Source: a virus
Strand: one strand, 5' to 3'
IMG/VR virus record: IMGVR_UViG_3300003323_000190
Location: 1 to 41,433 of that record
DNA length: 41,433 bases
Part shown: positions 2,451 through 36,173 of the stretch, piece after piece
How positions within the stretch are numbered: position 1 is the first letter of the stretch
Layout: every line of letters starts with the position of its first letter
Position numbers and translations under genes: made by a program
The notes under the pieces: generated by a model
Seen by the model: the letters and a program-made list of their open reading frames with translations, nothing else
What the model was told of the DNA's origin: nothing
The model's database searches: none

Positions 2451-3150
2451 AAGCATAAGCAAACATGCGTTTTCCGATCTTCTGCGAAATGCGGTGGAAC
2501 CGGTTACAGACCGCGAACTTAGACCACGGTTTTCCGCGCTTATTGAGAAACAACTTATTTTGTCCCTCAGCGGCGAGAAGCAAACGGGTGATGATGTCCA
2601 GCGTGACGCCCTGCAGGTAGATGATGCGCTTGGAGCGTCTGCCCTTGCTTTCTTCTGCCGGGAACACAATGCGCTCGTTCTCCAGTTCCACATGGCGCGG
2701 CTCTACATGGCGTACTTCCTGCGGGCGGCAGCCGGAATACCAGATGAACAGGAACAGGTCGCGGAAGGGATCGGATTCAGGAAGAAGCGCAAGAATCTGC
2801 TGGAAGTCCTCCGGCTTCATGTATATTTCGCGGCGCTTCGGCGTGGGCTTCTTCAGCTTCTGCACCGGGTTGGTTTCAAGATACCCCAGCTCGATGCCCC
2901 AATTGTAGAGCCGCTGAACGGCAACATAGGCGCTACGCTTGTATGTGTCGCCCCAGCCTTTGCCGCTATCCACCCAATCGACTACATGGAACGGCTTAAG
3001 GCTTGCGGCAGACATATCAGCGATGCCAGGATGCTTGCAGAAGGCTTTGAGATGCCCGGTGTACCATTCAAGGGTGCGGGGGCTGCGATGGCTCTTGCAC
3101 CAAATCAGGTACTTCGAGCAAAGGTTATTAACCGTAATGATGTTTTCCAT
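2296..3150 (-). CDS. Tyrosine recombinase / integrase (first of two)
   Basis: A 284-residue site-specific recombinase. An N-terminal SAM-like core-binding domain (residues 5-95) precedes the catalytic domain. Catalytic residues visible: Arg142 (SGCRPQEV), a Lys near 169, Arg235 in YASRHGFGT (the usual first His of H-x-x-R is Tyr, as in many phage integrases), His258 (GHSD) and Tyr268 (KIYSH). It is alone on the minus strand among plus-strand genes, and its 3' end overlaps the methyltransferase by 155 bp. With a second integrase at 37644-38825 beside the attachment site, this one may act on another site, resolve multimers, or be a remnant of an earlier insertion. Confidence 0.9.
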   Translation of the reverse strand: MENIITVNNLCSKYLIWCKSHRSPRTLEWYTGHLKAFCKHPGIADMSAASLKPFHVVDWVDSGKGWGDTYKRSAYVAVQRLYNWGIELGYLETNPVQKLKKPTPKRREIYMKPEDFQQILALLPESDPFRDLFLFIWYSGCRPQEVRHVEPRHVELENERIVFPAEESKGRRSKRIIYLQGVTLDIITRLLLAAEGQNKLFLNKRGKPWSKFAVCNRFHRISQKIGKRMFAYASRHGFGTRKLIQGHDHLTVAAIMGHSDGSMLAKIYSHISDDQEHLKRALAD

Positions 3151-3193
3151 GATTACGGTGTAGCGAATTACTACAGTTCACGTGTGGGCGAGC

Positions 3194-3445: not shown

Positions 3446-3556
3446 ATGGGCATGAACAATATAGCTGTCGAATACTGGCCTTATGCGCTAGCTTTAGGAT
3501 GCTTCATAGGGGTCCTGATTGTGATAGCCGCAGTGAAATGGCCGTGTAAAAAATAA
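3446..3556 (+). CDS. Tiny single-pass membrane protein (36 aa)
   Basis: A 36-codon frame with one hydrophobic stretch (residues about 11-31) and a positive C-terminus ending in KWPCKK, predicted to lie in the inner membrane with its tail in the cytoplasm. ATG 3452 is an alternative start. It sits tightly between two genes in the same direction. Function unknown. Confidence 0.4.
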   Translation: MGMNNIAVEYWPYALALGCFIGVLIVIAAVKWPCKK

Positions 3557-3580
3557 CGCTACTACATCTACGGAGGATTT

Positions 3581-3847
3581 ATGAATGAAGAAGAAGCAAG
3601 AATACATTTTGAATTGGAAAGCGGGAAGAACCAAAGCGACAGGATGGTCTATGCTGTTTTAGGAGCATTGGCTAAGCACCTTGACAATCATATTATTGTA
3701 GATGGCAATATGTACGACATCAGGGTTTTGGGTGCGCCTACTGAAAGGAATGGGGAGATAAGCCTTATGTTTGACGTCAAGGATCTCCCTGGCTTCGATC
3801 ATATAGAGTTCACAATTAAAAAGACCGGATGGGGTCGAAACGTTTAA
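3581..3847 (+). CDS. Hypothetical protein
   Basis: An 88-residue acidic protein with no motif I recognise. A strong GGAGG lies 6 bp before the ATG, which supports the start. It contains a probable alpha-beta-beta arrangement (helix at 15-37, strands around 40-75). Confidence 0.6.
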   Translation: MNEEEARIHFELESGKNQSDRMVYAVLGALAKHLDNHIIVDGNMYDIRVLGAPTERNGEISLMFDVKDLPGFDHIEFTIKKTGWGRNV

Positions 3848-3968: not shown

Positions 3969-4099
3969 GGTAATGCGAAATGAGGCGGGAAGAAAGATTT
4001 GATAAAGGTGAACGTCGAATGATCATGGGAAAGCCCCTGTAAAGCTGGCTTGGCAGCATGGGGAGACAGCGCAACGTAATTATTTCTACAGGAGGGACT

Positions 4100-4438
4100 A
4101 TGGGAGTTGATTTATCGCTAATGCCAGTGGATTACCACAGAGACAGCAATGAATGTACTGCATTTTCTTTGTTAAGACTTGAGCGTAGATCAGAACTATG
4201 GGGTGATATCGAGAAATTGCCAGTCACGTCATTTAAAGCTTTAACCGGACATTGTGGAGGCCGCTTTGAAACCGTCACCACAGATCCATATGGCAGTGAG
4301 CTTACCTATGCCACAGCTTCTGATTTATTGACCTTAGAAAATCATCCGGCTGTTCAAGATAATGAAAAAAATAGGGCAATATGGGCTTATCTCGGCAAAC
4401 TCAGGCCGGATCATAAAATCGCTCTATATTGGTCTTAA
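4100..4438 (+). CDS. Hypothetical phage protein (MGVDLSLMPV family-like)
   Basis: A 112-residue protein starting MGVDLSLMPVDYH. Short phage-encoded proteins starting with 'MGVDL.L.P.' recur in many temperate phages and are of unknown function. The frame extends upstream to 4058, but AGGAGGG immediately before ATG 4100 decides the start. No membrane segment or catalytic motif is seen. Confidence 0.65.
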   Translation: MGVDLSLMPVDYHRDSNECTAFSLLRLERRSELWGDIEKLPVTSFKALTGHCGGRFETVTTDPYGSELTYATASDLLTLENHPAVQDNEKNRAIWAYLGKLRPDHKIALYWS

Positions 4439-7080: not shown

Positions 7081-8988
7081 TTACGGTGTCGGGTTCGCAG
7101 AGTTAGAAACAGCCACGCAATGATAGTCGATAATGTCACCGCCTAAGCCGGTTCCCGTTACTGTTAAGGCTGTCGTAGAAACTGAGTAAGCCAGATTTGA
7201 AAGCGCCGTCTGTGCCGTCACAGTACACACGGGCTTGGCTGTGTGCGTATTAGCGAAGGAGATGGTGCAAGTCGTCGCCGTAGCACCTGCCGTAACTTCC
7301 CCGGCAATATCATTGCTACCAGTCAACAGTGAGGGCGATGTACCGCACGCAGAAACTACCGTGGTCGGCCCTTCAACGCCGAGGATACCCTTGGACTTAT
7401 CGCCCCAGATGATATTGCCGATATTGAGGTAATTGCTGGTGGAAGAAGTCGGGGTATCTACGCCGGAGGATGTGCCGATAAGCAGGTTGCTACCGCCTGT
7501 TGTTAGCGTGGTAGAAGCCACTTCATCACCAAGGACAGTATTGCTATTGCCTGTAGTGATTTTGAAACCAGCCTTATAACCGTGCAGATTATTGAAAGAT
7601 GACGTTGTTATGGCAAAACCAGCATCAACACCGGTTAAGTCGTTAAACGTGCCGGTAGTCATGTTTAATCCAGCGAATAGACCAACCATGCTATTATCAT
7701 GTCCGGTCGTCATCTTCTGTCCGGCCTGCGTGCCAACCGCCGTATTATCGGACGCTGTTGTCTGGTTTTGTAACGCATCCGAACCGACAGCGACGTTAAG
7801 ATTGCCCGTTGTATTGGTAGAAAGCGCATTAAAACCAAGGGCTACATTATCATGGCCGGTGGTATTAAGCTGCATCGCCCACTGTCCGAACGCGGAGTTA
7901 TAATATCCTGTCGTATCGGATGCGAGAGTCTGACCACCGAATGCTGCGTTATAGGAACCTGTCGTTATGGCACCGAGTGCCTGATTTCCTAGGCGAGTAT
8001 TCCAGAAGGCATCCGTTGTGAATAACGGAGACTTGGAGTTTGCAAGGGGATCATGCGCAGCGATGAAGTTTTCAACTTGCGTGGCAACAATCTGATAACC
8101 TGCGGCATTCAGATGCAGGTAGTCATAGGCTGTAAACGTAGTACCAGCAGTATAAGTTGCTGCCGTAGTTCCACCATAGCCACGCGTACAAGCCGATACA
8201 ACGCCACTGCTATTGACTGTATCGAGCGTGATATACTCACTGCCGATGAGCATGATGTCGCCATTATGCGGCACGGAGCCCGGAATGGTGACGGTGAAAG
8301 AGCAGGTGGAAACCGTCGTAATAGCTGTAGTAGTGGCAGCCGTATTAAGTACAGAACGCAACGTTACCGGCGTTAAGTCTGCCGCATGGTTGGCCACGTC
8401 TGCCGGATTTCCTGGATTATAAGCCGCAACCAGTATCGAACGAATATCGATATAATTATTAGGATAGGCCGAAAGAATCCCGGCGTTTATGACGGCAAGG
8501 TTATTGTATGCAGAGCTTCCGCTTGGTTCATATTGCGCATTCAATATTGTCATTACGACATAGCGATTTCTACCGGAAGGTAATGCACCAACCATAGAAG
8601 CGATGTTGCCAAGTGTTACATTGGGCGTGGAAAAATCATCATTACGCCCCGACCAGATGCTGGTGAAGTCGTTATAAGTCTGCGGGTTTGCCTGAAACCG
8701 GGAAAGAATCTGCGTACTGTTCTGCGCAGGCCAGCCCCAGTTATAGGTAATACGTCCCGTATCAACCTGTATGTCTCCAGGGTAGTTGTCACCCGCGTAA
8801 TTGCTGCCGTTATAATCCTGCCCACCATAGGTAAGCGAATCACCCCATGCAGAAATAGCCGCGTCATTAGACGGGATATTCGCAAGATTAAAGCGATTGA
8901 TAACACCGCTAAATATCTGCGCATTCGCTGTGTGTGCATACCCAACAATAAGAATTGCGGCAAAAAGCCTTTTAATTGCTGTTATCAT
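7081..8988 (-). CDS. Tail spike with SGNH esterase domain and repeats
   Basis: A 635-residue receptor-interaction protein. Residues 1-24 look like a signal peptide (cleavage near ANAQ). Residues about 40-310 form an SGNH hydrolase: GDS at 49-51 (nucleophile Ser51), GxND at 114-117, DxxH at 289-292; a Cys-containing beta insert (about 205-285) sits before the DxxH block. Residues about 333-525 are roughly nine imperfect ~21-residue repeats of the type 'NTTG..N.A.G..AL', as in trimeric fibres and adhesins. The C-terminal ~95 residues look like a beta domain. Likely role: binding and deacetylating host surface polysaccharide. GAGGATCG before ATG 8988 supports the start, so the signal-like N-terminus is real. 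Confidence 0.8.
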   Translation of the reverse strand: MITAIKRLFAAILIVGYAHTANAQIFSGVINRFNLANIPSNDAAISAWGDSLTYGGQDYNGSNYAGDNYPGDIQVDTGRITYNWGWPAQNSTQILSRFQANPQTYNDFTSIWSGRNDDFSTPNVTLGNIASMVGALPSGRNRYVVMTILNAQYEPSGSSAYNNLAVINAGILSAYPNNYIDIRSILVAAYNPGNPADVANHAADLTPVTLRSVLNTAATTTAITTVSTCSFTVTIPGSVPHNGDIMLIGSEYITLDTVNSSGVVSACTRGYGGTTAATYTAGTTFTAYDYLHLNAAGYQIVATQVENFIAAHDPLANSKSPLFTTDAFWNTRLGNQALGAITTGSYNAAFGGQTLASDTTGYYNSAFGQWAMQLNTTGHDNVALGFNALSTNTTGNLNVAVGSDALQNQTTASDNTAVGTQAGQKMTTGHDNSMVGLFAGLNMTTGTFNDLTGVDAGFAITTSSFNNLHGYKAGFKITTGNSNTVLGDEVASTTLTTGGSNLLIGTSSGVDTPTSSTSNYLNIGNIIWGDKSKGILGVEGPTTVVSACGTSPSLLTGSNDIAGEVTAGATATTCTISFANTHTAKPVCTVTAQTALSNLAYSVSTTALTVTGTGLGGDIIDYHCVAVSNSANPTP

Positions 8989-33506: not shown

Positions 33507-33647
33507 ATGGAAATGCACGGCAATACCCCGCCAGCGTGGGATGGTGAAATGTGTTGGGGCTGCCTGCTGATGATGCTTGCTGCAATCGTGGCAATCGGCG
33601 GCTCGGCGGAAGTGCTTAGCAGGATTATCTGGGGAGTGTGGATATGA
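33507..33647 (+). CDS. Small membrane protein (46 aa)
   Basis: A 46-codon frame with an N-terminal polar region, then one hydrophobic segment (CWGCLLMMLAAIVAIGG) with two cysteines, and a short amphipathic end. AAGGAGGT lies before the ATG and the end overlaps the recE-like start (ATGA). Function unknown. Confidence 0.45.
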   Translation: MEMHGNTPPAWDGEMCWGCLLMMLAAIVAIGGSAEVLSRIIWGVWI

Positions 33648-34525
33648 ATAACCTAGCAGTAAAAAACGATCTGGACGGTTATATCCTTAAGCACATCAGC
33701 AACGAGGAATACCACGCCAGCACGGCAATATCAAAAAGCGGCCTTGACCTGATCGCTAAATCTCCGGCGCATTACCATGCTGAGAAGATCAATGAAGACC
33801 CGGAATTGAAGCGCGAGCGCACGAAGTCGCTGGACATCGGAACGGCCTTTCACTTGCTGGCGCTGGAGCCGGAAAGCTTTGATGCGAATATCGCGGTGGA
33901 TGCTGACAAGTACCCGACAAAGAAGGAATGCGGGCGCACCATTGAAGAGCAGCGGGCAGAGTTTGCAGCCGCTAATGCTGGCAAGGTCATCATCCGCGAG
34001 AGCGATCTGGATTCCAAACTGCGCAAGATGGCTGATTCTATCCGTAACCATCCGGCAGCGCGTTACCTGTTGCAAGGCAAAGGCATGGTGGAAGCTTCTA
34101 TCTTCTGCAAGGACACGATTCATGGTGTTAATTGCCGTGTGCGCCCGGACTGGCTGCGTGAGGATGGGTTGATTATCGACCTGAAGACGACAAAGGACGC
34201 TTCTGCATCCGGCTTCGATAAGGCGATATGGAACTATCGCTACCACGTACAGGCCGCCTTCTACATGGATATGTACGAGGTGGTGACGGGCAAGCGCTCG
34301 CCAGGGTTTGTGCTTATTCCGGTAGAGAATACCGCTCCATTCCTTGCTGGCGAGCCAGTGTTGATCGAAGAAGGCGATGACTGGCTGAATATCGGGCGGC
34401 GTGCGTATCTGGAGAATATCGAGACGTACGCACGTTGTCTGGAAACTGGAAAATGGCCGGGATATGGCGAGAAAGTAAGAAAGTCTATGCCCATGCCGTG
34501 GATGAATAATTTAACAACAATTTAA
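33644..34525 (+). CDS. RecE-like exonuclease (PD-(D/E)XK, DUF3799-type)
   Basis: A 293-residue exonuclease that would resect DNA 5' ends to expose 3' single strands for annealing. Motifs: GTAFH with His70, Glu150 in GMVEASIF, Asp169 in RVRPDW, Asp179-Leu-Lys181 in LIIDLKTT, and YHVQAAFY (about 197-204). This matches the PDDEXK_1 / exonuclease VIII C-terminal nuclease domain. It works with the RecT-like protein encoded at 35268. ATG 33644 overlaps the upstream stop. Confidence 0.85.
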   Translation: MNNLAVKNDLDGYILKHISNEEYHASTAISKSGLDLIAKSPAHYHAEKINEDPELKRERTKSLDIGTAFHLLALEPESFDANIAVDADKYPTKKECGRTIEEQRAEFAAANAGKVIIRESDLDSKLRKMADSIRNHPAARYLLQGKGMVEASIFCKDTIHGVNCRVRPDWLREDGLIIDLKTTKDASASGFDKAIWNYRYHVQAAFYMDMYEVVTGKRSPGFVLIPVENTAPFLAGEPVLIEEGDDWLNIGRRAYLENIETYARCLETGKWPGYGEKVRKSMPMPWMNNLTTI

Positions 34526-34535
34526 GGAGATTAAA

Positions 34536-34970
34536 ATGACGATCACAAACTATTCAACTGCCGTATTTTTTATTGATGAGCGTGTCCGCGCCATTAAGGC
34601 GATTTATGAGAAAGATACCGAACGCACCCAAGCACCCCGCGAGATATTCAAGACGTTGGATCAAAACCTTAAGAAAGGCGATTACATCATCGTCCCGACT
34701 GATAGCCGCCATAATATGAGCGTTCTGGAGGTGGTTGAGGTCGATGTGCGCCTTGATCTTCTGTCCACCGCCAATGTCAAGTGGGTTATCGGCAAGATCA
34801 ATCTGGATGATTACAAAAAGATCACCGCTTGGGAAGATGGCGCTATAGCAAAAATGCAGAATGCGGAAGCAGCCAAGAAGCGCAAGGAACTTGCCGCTAC
34901 CATGGGAGAATATTTTGAAGGTATTGAGCCTTTGAAATTGGAAGATAACGTGCAACAGAAAGGAGAATAA
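34536..34970 (+). CDS. Hypothetical protein between recE-like and recT-like genes
   Basis: A 144-residue charged protein, with an N-terminal alpha/beta part (YSTAVFFIDERVRAIKAIYEKD) and a DYIIVPTDSRHN strand near residue 50, then a coiled coil in the C-terminal third (NAEAAKKRKELAATMGEYFEG). AAGGAG precedes the ATG. Its place in the recombination operon suggests a helper, but I do not recognise it. A structured non-coding stretch follows directly. Confidence 0.6.
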   Translation: MTITNYSTAVFFIDERVRAIKAIYEKDTERTQAPREIFKTLDQNLKKGDYIIVPTDSRHNMSVLEVVEVDVRLDLLSTANVKWVIGKINLDDYKKITAWEDGAIAKMQNAEAAKKRKELAATMGEYFEGIEPLKLEDNVQQKGE

Positions 34971-34973
34971 CTG

Positions 34974-35123
34974 AAGGCATAGCTGTGACCCTCTGCCTTA
35001 AACCCTAGGGGAGCAGCCGGTTAACTTCGCCTTCGCTCAGTTAACCGTTCTACAAAGAAAAAATCGCGGGTTAGTAGGAGTCTGGAACAAAGGGTATTTA
35101 AATAAGGCGAAGTTCTGGACTCC
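34974..35123 (+). ncRNA. Candidate structured RNA with kissing loop
   Basis: A gap of 176 bp with dense pairing and no convincing reading frame. Three hairpins are visible: AAGGCA / TGCCTT (34974-34979 / 34994-34999); CGGTTAAC / GTTAACCG (35018-35025 / 35040-35047); and a 12-bp stem with two G-U pairs, GGAGTCTGGAAC / GTTCTGGACTCC (35077-35088 / 35112-35123). The loop of the second (TTCGCCTT, 35026-35033) is exactly complementary to the loop of the third (AAGGCGAA, 35104-35111), compatible with both stems. No uridine tract follows, so it is not a terminator. It may be a cis-acting element of the recT side of the operon or an independent RNA. Confidence 0.55.
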
Positions 35124-35146
35124 GAAGACCTGAGGAATATGGAAAT

Positions 35147-35263
35147 ATGGCAACTTGTCCCAAATGCGGAAGAACAAATATTAAAAAGCAAAAACACACA
35201 GGCATGAAGAAATGCAAAAAATGCGGTTTTCTGCCTGATAGCAAACAAGGAAGTAAGGAATAA
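35147..35263 (+). CDS. Small zinc-ribbon protein (38 aa)
   Basis: A 38-residue protein with two knuckles, CPKCG and CKKCG, separated by a basic linker, so it probably binds one zinc ion and nucleic acid. A GAGGAAT sequence precedes the ATG, and it ends 4 bp before recT. It could be a nucleic-acid-binding partner of the recombination proteins. Confidence 0.5.
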   Translation: MATCPKCGRTNIKKQKHTGMKKCKKCGFLPDSKQGSKE

Positions 35264-35267
35264 CAAT

Positions 35268-36173
35268 ATGAACGAATTAACCGTAGCAACCCAATCACAG
35301 CACGTATTTGCCAATGCTCAGTCGTTTGAGACTGCGCAGCGCATTGCCGGGGCTTTATCAAAGGCCAGCCTTGTTCCGAAGGAGTATCAGAACAATCTGC
35401 CGAATTCCCTTATCGCGCTGGAAATCGCGCAGCGTACCGGGGCAAGCCCGTTACTTGTCATGCAGAATTTATACATCGTGCACGGCAAGCCGAGCTGGTC
35501 TAGCCAGTTCATTATCTCGGCTATCAATTCCTGCGGACGCTTCAAGCCACTCCGTTTTGATCTGTCCGGCAAGATGAATGATGATGACCGCACCTGTGTC
35601 GCATGGACAGTCGAACGCGGCGTAGACCTGCCGCCTGACGTTGGCACGCTGGAGCAGGCGAAAGCTCGCAATCTGCCTGTGCTGGAAAGCCCTCCTGTGT
35701 CTATCAAGATTGCCAAGGCCGAGGGCTGGTACAGCAAGAACGGCAGTAAGTGGCAGACCATGCCGGAACTGATGCTGCGCTACCGCGCCGCGACATTCTT
35801 CGGTCGCCTATATGCTCCTGAGATTCTGATGGGTATGCGCACGGAAGACGAATCCCAGGACATGATCGACGTGACCCCGGAAAGCACTATCCTGAACAAC
35901 CTGAATGATGCCATTAAGGCGGAATCGCAGCAGGTGACGGACGTTGCCGAGGCTCCGGCGCAGGAGGAAGCGCAGCAGCAGGCAGAGATGAAGACCGTGG
36001 AACTTACGCTGATCGGCTGGCAGAAAGAGCTTAATAATGCTGCATCGCTGGATGATCTGGCAGAGAAGCACAGGCAGGCAGTCGCACAGTTTGACGGCGA
36101 TTCTATAGCGCAGAATGCTCTGAATTCGTGCAAGACGAAACGTGAGGCAGCCTTGAAGAAAGAAGCGGCATAA
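35268..36173 (+). CDS. recT: RecT-family single-strand annealing protein
   Basis: A 301-residue recombinase that would coat and anneal single-stranded DNA made by the RecE-like exonuclease. Recognised by the RecT pattern: SLIALEIAQRTGASPLLVMQNLYIVHGKPSWSSQFIISAIN (about 46-86), then KIAKAEGWYSKNGSKWQTMPELMLRYRAATFFGRLYAPEILMGM. The C-terminal 80 residues are a Gln/Glu-rich linker and helices (EAPAQEEAQQQAEM), less conserved. Expressed from the right early operon. Confidence 0.88.
   Translation: MNELTVATQSQHVFANAQSFETAQRIAGALSKASLVPKEYQNNLPNSLIALEIAQRTGASPLLVMQNLYIVHGKPSWSSQFIISAINSCGRFKPLRFDLSGKMNDDDRTCVAWTVERGVDLPPDVGTLEQAKARNLPVLESPPVSIKIAKAEGWYSKNGSKWQTMPELMLRYRAATFFGRLYAPEILMGMRTEDESQDMIDVTPESTILNNLNDAIKAESQQVTDVAEAPAQEEAQQQAEMKTVELTLIGWQKELNNAASLDDLAEKHRQAVAQFDGDSIAQNALNSCKTKREAALKKEAA

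Follow-up and report, generated by a model that had tools for sequence, protein, structure and literature searches.

Genomic setting of the RNA segment

The DNA analysed here is an IMG/VR virus record of 41433 bases, referred to in its full length as the window, and contains head, portal, terminase and integrase genes. The segment of interest lies in a rightward operon which comprises, all on the + strand and in this order, the genes for a RecE-like exonuclease (DUF3799, phrog_412; 33638–34525) and the 144-aa protein P0002 (34536–34970), a spacer (34971–35146), a zinc-ribbon ORF of 38 amino acids with a CxxC/CxxC pattern (35147–35263) and the gene for a RecT-like annealing protein (35268–36173). 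The original prediction had placed a recE-like gene directly before the segment and recT directly after it; both are context genes located one gene further away, and the immediate neighbours are the upstream partner P0002 and the zinc ribbon.

Within the spacer, a structured RNA with the conserved helices P1 to P4 extends on the + strand from 34982 to 35132, as judged by a match to the covariance model R2 and by covariation over homologues. P0002 stops at 34970 and P1 starts at 34982, thus the RNA is found directly 3′ of a P0002-family gene, while P4 abuts the ribosome-binding site of the zinc ribbon. No sigma-70 promoter-like site of the RNA's own was detected between 33400 and 36400, and no intrinsic terminator follows the RNA; the absence of a terminator had been predicted, and indeed no + strand terminator-like site was found.

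Fold of the window RNA

P1 (34982–35017) consists of an outer helix (34982–34986/35013–35017), an internal loop formed by UGA and GA, and an inner helix (34989–34992/35008–35011). Its loop harbors two segments that pair with the loop of P4 (35091–35112) in a two-part pseudoknot, namely GCCUU (34995–34999) with AAGGC (35104–35108), denoted PKb, and ACCCU (35002–35006) with AGGGU (35091–35095), denoted PKa. Both parts are in register with the aligned homologues. The P2 hairpin (35018–35047) is built from 9 base pairs followed by a UC/UC internal loop, a GC/GC step and the tetraloop CUUC (35031–35034), and in MFE folds it is succeeded by P3 (35048–35059), a weak 4-bp hairpin UUCU-ACAA-AGAA which is longer in most homologues. 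P4 (35067–35132) comprises a 6-bp outer helix, an AGUA/GAA internal loop (35073–35076/35124–35126) and a 12-bp inner helix (35077–35088/35112–35123). The 3′ part of its loop carries the motif AAGGCGAAG (35104–35112), which contains the PKb partner and is the window form of the conserved motif RGGGCGAAG. All these elements are read from the + strand, and the folding energy by itself is unremarkable (z −1.8).

Three hairpins had been predicted from the window alone, and all three can be located, at 34974–34999, 35018–35047 and 35067–35132. The 12-bp stem ascribed to the last of them, which is P4, is present with 10 Watson-Crick and 2 G-U pairs. The inventory lacked the fourth small hairpin at 35048–35059, and the first hairpin, while it exists, is not the conserved pairing, as the homologues instead pair GCUGU (34982–34986) with GCAGC (35013–35017) and CCCU (34989–34992) with GGGG (35008–35011). 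The apical part of the second hairpin had been taken for a loop; it is mostly paired as GC[CUUC]GC (35029–35036), as it is in L177, L178 and L180.

The AGUA/GAA internal loop of P4 is of the sarcin-ricin (bulged-G) type, and no second hairpin of this kind occurs in the window. The small internal loop at this position differs in other copies (GCAA/GAA in the first copy of Caulobacter phage Kuura, AGAA/UAAG in L120), and the motif was dropped as a hallmark of the family for lack of conservation. An H-type pseudoknot AAGGCA/UGCCUU with P1 was likewise not conserved and was discarded. The segments CCUUAAACCCU (34996–35006) and AGGGUAUUUAAAUAAGG (35092–35108) are complementary over nearly their full length with bulges, and in the window phage the P1-P4 contact may, judged from these letters, be longer than the two segments shared by the family.

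Identification of homologous RNAs

Sequence-only searches for the RNA, i.e. blastn and nhmmer against recT loci, blastn in phages and an exact 28-mer in viral contigs, were empty, and no homologous RNA was recovered with RecT, RecE, the zinc ribbon or the terminase as anchors; the RNA accompanies neither recT nor relatives of the terminase. A 17-mer in L168 and L169 and an nhmmer match in L082 lie inside coding genes and were discarded as chance. A covariance model derived from the window sequence alone yielded one weak full-length match (L120:5481–5633, E 0.097; nhmmer E 32), which gained credibility only through a P0002 homologue whose gene stops a few bases upstream of the RNA. Kuura (L134) is the sole phage with a P0002 match in the searched phage collection and contains an unannotated 470-nt stretch after P0002. 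As P0002 was found at L120 and in Kuura, the viral contigs were therefore searched by a P0002 protein pattern, the degenerate motif V-P-T-x-(T/S)-R-(H/Q)-x-x-(T/S)-V-x-(K/E)-V. This search returned 17 loci, all 17 of which encode a P0002 homologue, and each locus having downstream sequence exhibits a folded spacer of the same architecture there, i.e. the RNA is present.

In total the family comprises 22 copies from 19 records of phages or prophages; each copy follows immediately on the 3′ side of a P0002-family gene and is read in the same direction as that gene. Two tandem copies, divergent from each other, are found in three records (L174, L188 and Kuura), and scans of whole records with model R2 detected the RNA only after P0002, either single or as a tandem pair. 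The RNAs are about 150–230 nt long; P1 has the form GUGACCUGGUGCCCU..CCUCACAGGAGYGGC, P2 ends in GC[AUUC or AUGC]GC, P3 is variable and the P4 loop reads GUGAGG..RGGGCGAA. The RNA was not found in 385 alphaproteobacterial genomes, P0002 was not found in whole-genome samples beyond L120, and plasmids contained no P0002. A pseudoknotted RNA family has thus been retained across diverse phages despite very low sequence identity.

Conservation of the fold and the pseudoknot

Covariation was tested on a sequence-based core alignment of 13 sequences, for which the real P1 and P4 segments were cut by hand around the loops and joined; three sequences with a slight misalignment of the P4 loop (L189, L179 and L176) were retained. 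In this alignment 92.4% of the cells pair, double-sided changes occur in 22 of 29 pairs, and the covariation score of 0.599 compares with 0.228 in shuffles, none of 500 of which reaches it. Sliding the partners as a control lowers pairing to 36–47%. P1 is paired in 98.6% of cells, with double changes in 7/11 pairs, and all 7 counted pairs of the P4 inner helix show double changes. Both parts of the pseudoknot hold when tested separately, PKa with 88.5% of cells paired and double changes in 5/6 pairs, and PKb with 93.1% of cells paired, the score being matched by 0/500 shuffles in either case. Over all 22 copies, standard pairs are found in 148/154 cells of the P1 outer helix and pairing in 180/198 cells of P2, whose tetraloop is AUUC, AUGC, AUGU or AUAU outside the window copy.

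An alignment-free swap test, with loop borders set by hand from the stems, gave a longest match between P1 loop and P4 loop of 6.18 nt within the same copy versus 4.80 nt with the loops of other phages (22 copies; 0/20000 permutations). Furthermore, P1a contains 22 G-U cells versus a single A-C cell, and this excess points to a + strand RNA rather than a DNA palindrome.

Model R2, a covariance model of P1+P2 from which the window, Kuura and L120 were left out, matches the window at 34977–35043 with 39.6 bits and E 9.3e-7 and recovers both Kuura copies (E 1.5e-8 and 9.7e-5), these E-values being rough owing to a short calibration. The most divergent members L120, L170, L177 and L186 are missed and L180 is seen at noise level only, while the control loci contained nothing credible. 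In a search of the window and 14 homologous loci against Rfam 15 (4227 families), nothing reached the gathering threshold except two tRNAs elsewhere. Lax searches of the window and L120 gave weak matches only, and the Rfam models of riboswitches and self-cleaving ribozymes did not match. Titles and abstracts of the open-access literature contain nothing on such an element.

The segment is therefore almost certainly a real structured RNA family, and this family is new in that it is absent from Rfam 15. Comparison of the copies shows the fold, the pseudoknot, the strand and the gene linkage. The original prediction of a structured RNA of no known class, for which covariance and Rfam comparisons had been proposed as checks, is strongly supported by the strong covariation in 22 homologous copies, the compensatory changes in the stems and the missing Rfam family for window and homologues alike.

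The proposed contact between hairpins 2 and 3

The 8-nt complementarity TTCGCCTT/AAGGCGAA on which a kissing contact of hairpins 2 and 3 had been based is real and extends to 11 perfect nucleotides, AACTTCGCCTT (35023–35033) with AAGGCGAAGTT (35104–35114). It is also as rare by chance as had been supposed: an 11-nt perfect inverted match arose in 19/5000 dinucleotide shuffles, and two MFE hairpin loops sharing at least 7 complementary nucleotides were found in 4 of 8424 GC-matched windows. The homologues do not support the contact. In the swap test for P2 and P4 the longest match is 4.09 nt within copies versus 3.95 nt with others (4851/20000 permutations; 9674/20000 when the window is omitted). 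AAGGCGAA is the window version of the P4 motif RGGGCGAA and UUCGCCUUCGC that of the P2 apical motif with GC[CUUC]GC. Where P2 of a homologue contains UUCGC, there is a 5-nt match to GCGAA, but this match does not covary, since P4 retains GCGAA also in copies that have AUGCGC in P2. Moreover, the conserved P1-P4 contact uses the same AAGGC letters of P4 as the kiss. A P2-P4 contact may form in the window phage alone, and a rare loop-loop match in a single sequence can thus mislead on which loops truly pair.

The flanking proteins and the recombination genes

PHROG 13551, to which no function is attached, matches all 19 P0002 members. The AlphaFold prediction of P0002 (pLDDT 89.4) depicts a small beta-barrel with a long helix; an earlier fold from 3 sequences was poor (pLDDT 42) and was not used. 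Foldseek lists PriA chains as best PDB matches with a probability of 0.98 but with E 0.07 and TM 0.32–0.37, as well as two viral matches named primosomal protein, so that the modelled likeness to PriA is a hint only. Distant relatives of P0002 occur in Queuovirinae and other phages, where the RNA is absent as far as examined. Those in L192, L195, L197, L198 and L199 are located in replication modules with primase, ligase or nucleotide genes. Downstream of another distant relative in Brevundimonas phage StAshley (L196), an unannotated strong-folding stretch (2955–3170), not recognised by model R2, is followed by a tRNA-like sequence.

In 16 of the 18 records that could be evaluated, a zinc-ribbon or CxxC-type small ORF begins right after P4, several of these calls, e.g. 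L182 and L187, having been made by eye. The exceptions are L120, in which P0002 is preceded by a zinc-ribbon-like ORF, and Kuura, where none follows the two RNA copies; the link to the zinc ribbon hence looks looser than that to P0002, which is complete. Across 14 loci the Shine-Dalgarno sequence (SD) of the zinc ribbon is unpaired with a probability of 0.10–0.85, i.e. its sequestration is not conserved. Masking of the SD by the leader was accordingly dropped, and no conserved expression platform was seen at these 14 loci, where SD masking was examined.

The recombination genes near the RNA include RecE/RecT in the window and L175, exonuclease VIII in L177 and L186, Erf with an exonuclease in L185, a Bet-like protein with an exonuclease in L180 and a Sak4-like protein in L177. 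The phage recombination genes that adjoin the RNA module are thus unrelated in type (RecE/RecT, Erf, Bet-like and Sak4-like). PHROG 1366 proteins are encoded within a few kb of the RNA in L174 (217–1515), L177 (10369–11562) and L187 (4783–5880), the one in L177 also matching a Sak4-like annealing protein. In L182 a queuine tRNA-ribosyltransferase-like gene (8213–8941) lies about 2 kb downstream of the RNA.

Comparison with known systems

As an RNA family the element is new, whereas precedents exist for its kind, an orphan structured phage RNA with protein partners. Pseudoknotted phage or plasmid RNAs beside a small protein gene, sometimes repeated, are known from type III toxin-antitoxin systems, in which the gene of an endoRNase toxin is preceded by ToxI, an RNA made up of short pseudoknots in tandem. 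The present RNA differs in that most copies, including that of the window, are single and that the neighbours are the zinc ribbon and P0002, a PHROG 13551 protein, instead of a ToxN-like endoRNase preceded by tandem short repeats. The put antiterminator RNAs of lambdoid phages act near the early promoter to make RNA polymerase resistant to terminators, and the mid-operon location of the window RNA argues against such a likeness. On the protein side, the weak Foldseek match relates P0002 to the 3′ DNA-binding region of PriA, but P0002 lacks the helicase part.

The ornate RNAs GOLLD, ROOL and OLE have entries in Rfam, in contrast to the new RNA. They resemble it as orphan structured bacterial or phage RNAs with loop-loop contacts (PMC12286853), and are described as large, whereas the new RNA measures about 150–230 nt and is tied to a protein module. 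Com of phage Mu is a small zinc finger which binds an mRNA hairpin and controls translation (PMC6483171), and by description the two systems share a tiny phage zinc-binding protein with an adjoining structured RNA (PMC6483171). Com, however, acts on the downstream mom via one short hairpin near a translation-inhibition structure, whereas here a pseudoknotted RNA of 150 nt precedes the zinc-ribbon gene itself and, with the SD accessibilities given above, does not consistently close the ribosome-binding site.

Proposed function

An RNA locked between two small proteins beside recombination genes points to an RNA-protein role in phage DNA metabolism or its control. The reading tentatively favored here is that of a protein-bound RNA in the early recombination operon which might tune the output of that operon by autoregulation. 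The RNA would be transcribed within the operon and bound by one of the two small proteins encoded beside it or by both, most likely by the basic zinc ribbon. Its pseudoknot would present a rigid surface to be read by the protein, with the AUNY-type tetraloop of P2 and the GCGAA motif of P4, and binding beside the zinc-ribbon ribosome-binding site or in the 3′ end of P0002 would adjust operon output. This is consistent with the P0002 linkage, the frequent position of the zinc ribbon just 3′ of P4 and the abutment of P4 on the ribosome-binding site, and Com of phage Mu offers a precedent for translational control by a small phage zinc finger. Counting against it are the zinc-ribbon exceptions L120 and Kuura, the divergent tandem copies of L174, L188 and Kuura, which fit a stand-alone RNA equally well, and the SD that is not consistently masked. 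The last point argues against a simple switch that hides the SD, so that control by a bound protein and a ribonucleoprotein acting in trans come out almost equally likely.

Nearly as likely as autoregulation is a stand-alone RNA that joins P0002, the zinc ribbon or both in a ribonucleoprotein acting in trans, possibly in phage recombination or replication or against a host defence. The complete P0002 linkage alongside a zinc ribbon that is not always downstream, the tandem copies and the lack of an SD-sequestering platform agree with it, as do the association with annealing-recombination genes of unrelated types and the weak structural resemblance between P0002 and PriA, a helicase of DNA replication restart. 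However, with neither promoter-like site nor intrinsic terminator of its own such an RNA would need to be processed from the operon mRNA, and a position squeezed between two ORFs is what cis elements typically show. That RNA and both small proteins form a ribonucleoprotein which has a role in annealing recombination of the phage or in recombination-dependent replication and serves unrelated recombinases (RecT, Erf, Bet-like, Sak4-like) is considered unlikely.

A ligand-sensing riboswitch for the zinc-ribbon gene, responding e.g. to a metal or nucleotide, would account for the conserved P1 and P4 loop sequences, the pseudoknot, the tandem copies and the site 5′ of the zinc ribbon, but is improbable given the missing expression platform, the lack of an Rfam riboswitch match and the absence from the 385 alphaproteobacterial genomes, where metabolite riboswitches would be expected. 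Control of recT by a kissing complex of P2 and P4, as proposed in the original prediction, is very improbable despite the rare 8- to 11-nt complementarity in the window: the homologues have not kept the contact, which also competes with the conserved pairing of P1 and P4 for the letters of P4, the gene that follows the RNA is not recT, and other recombinases adjoin the homologues, the constant neighbours being P0002 and the zinc ribbon, so that regulation of recT in particular finds no specific support. A DNA-level element with inverted repeats, such as a replication origin or recombination site, would suit the recombination region but is hardly tenable in view of the G-U excess in P1a, the fixed orientation relative to the genes and the nested long-range pseudoknot.

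An RNA-protein function is directly testable, as the isolated Caulobacter phage Kuura carries two copies of the RNA. In this phage further strong hairpins (3502–3590 and 3985–4220) flank both copies in a region nearly without annotated genes.
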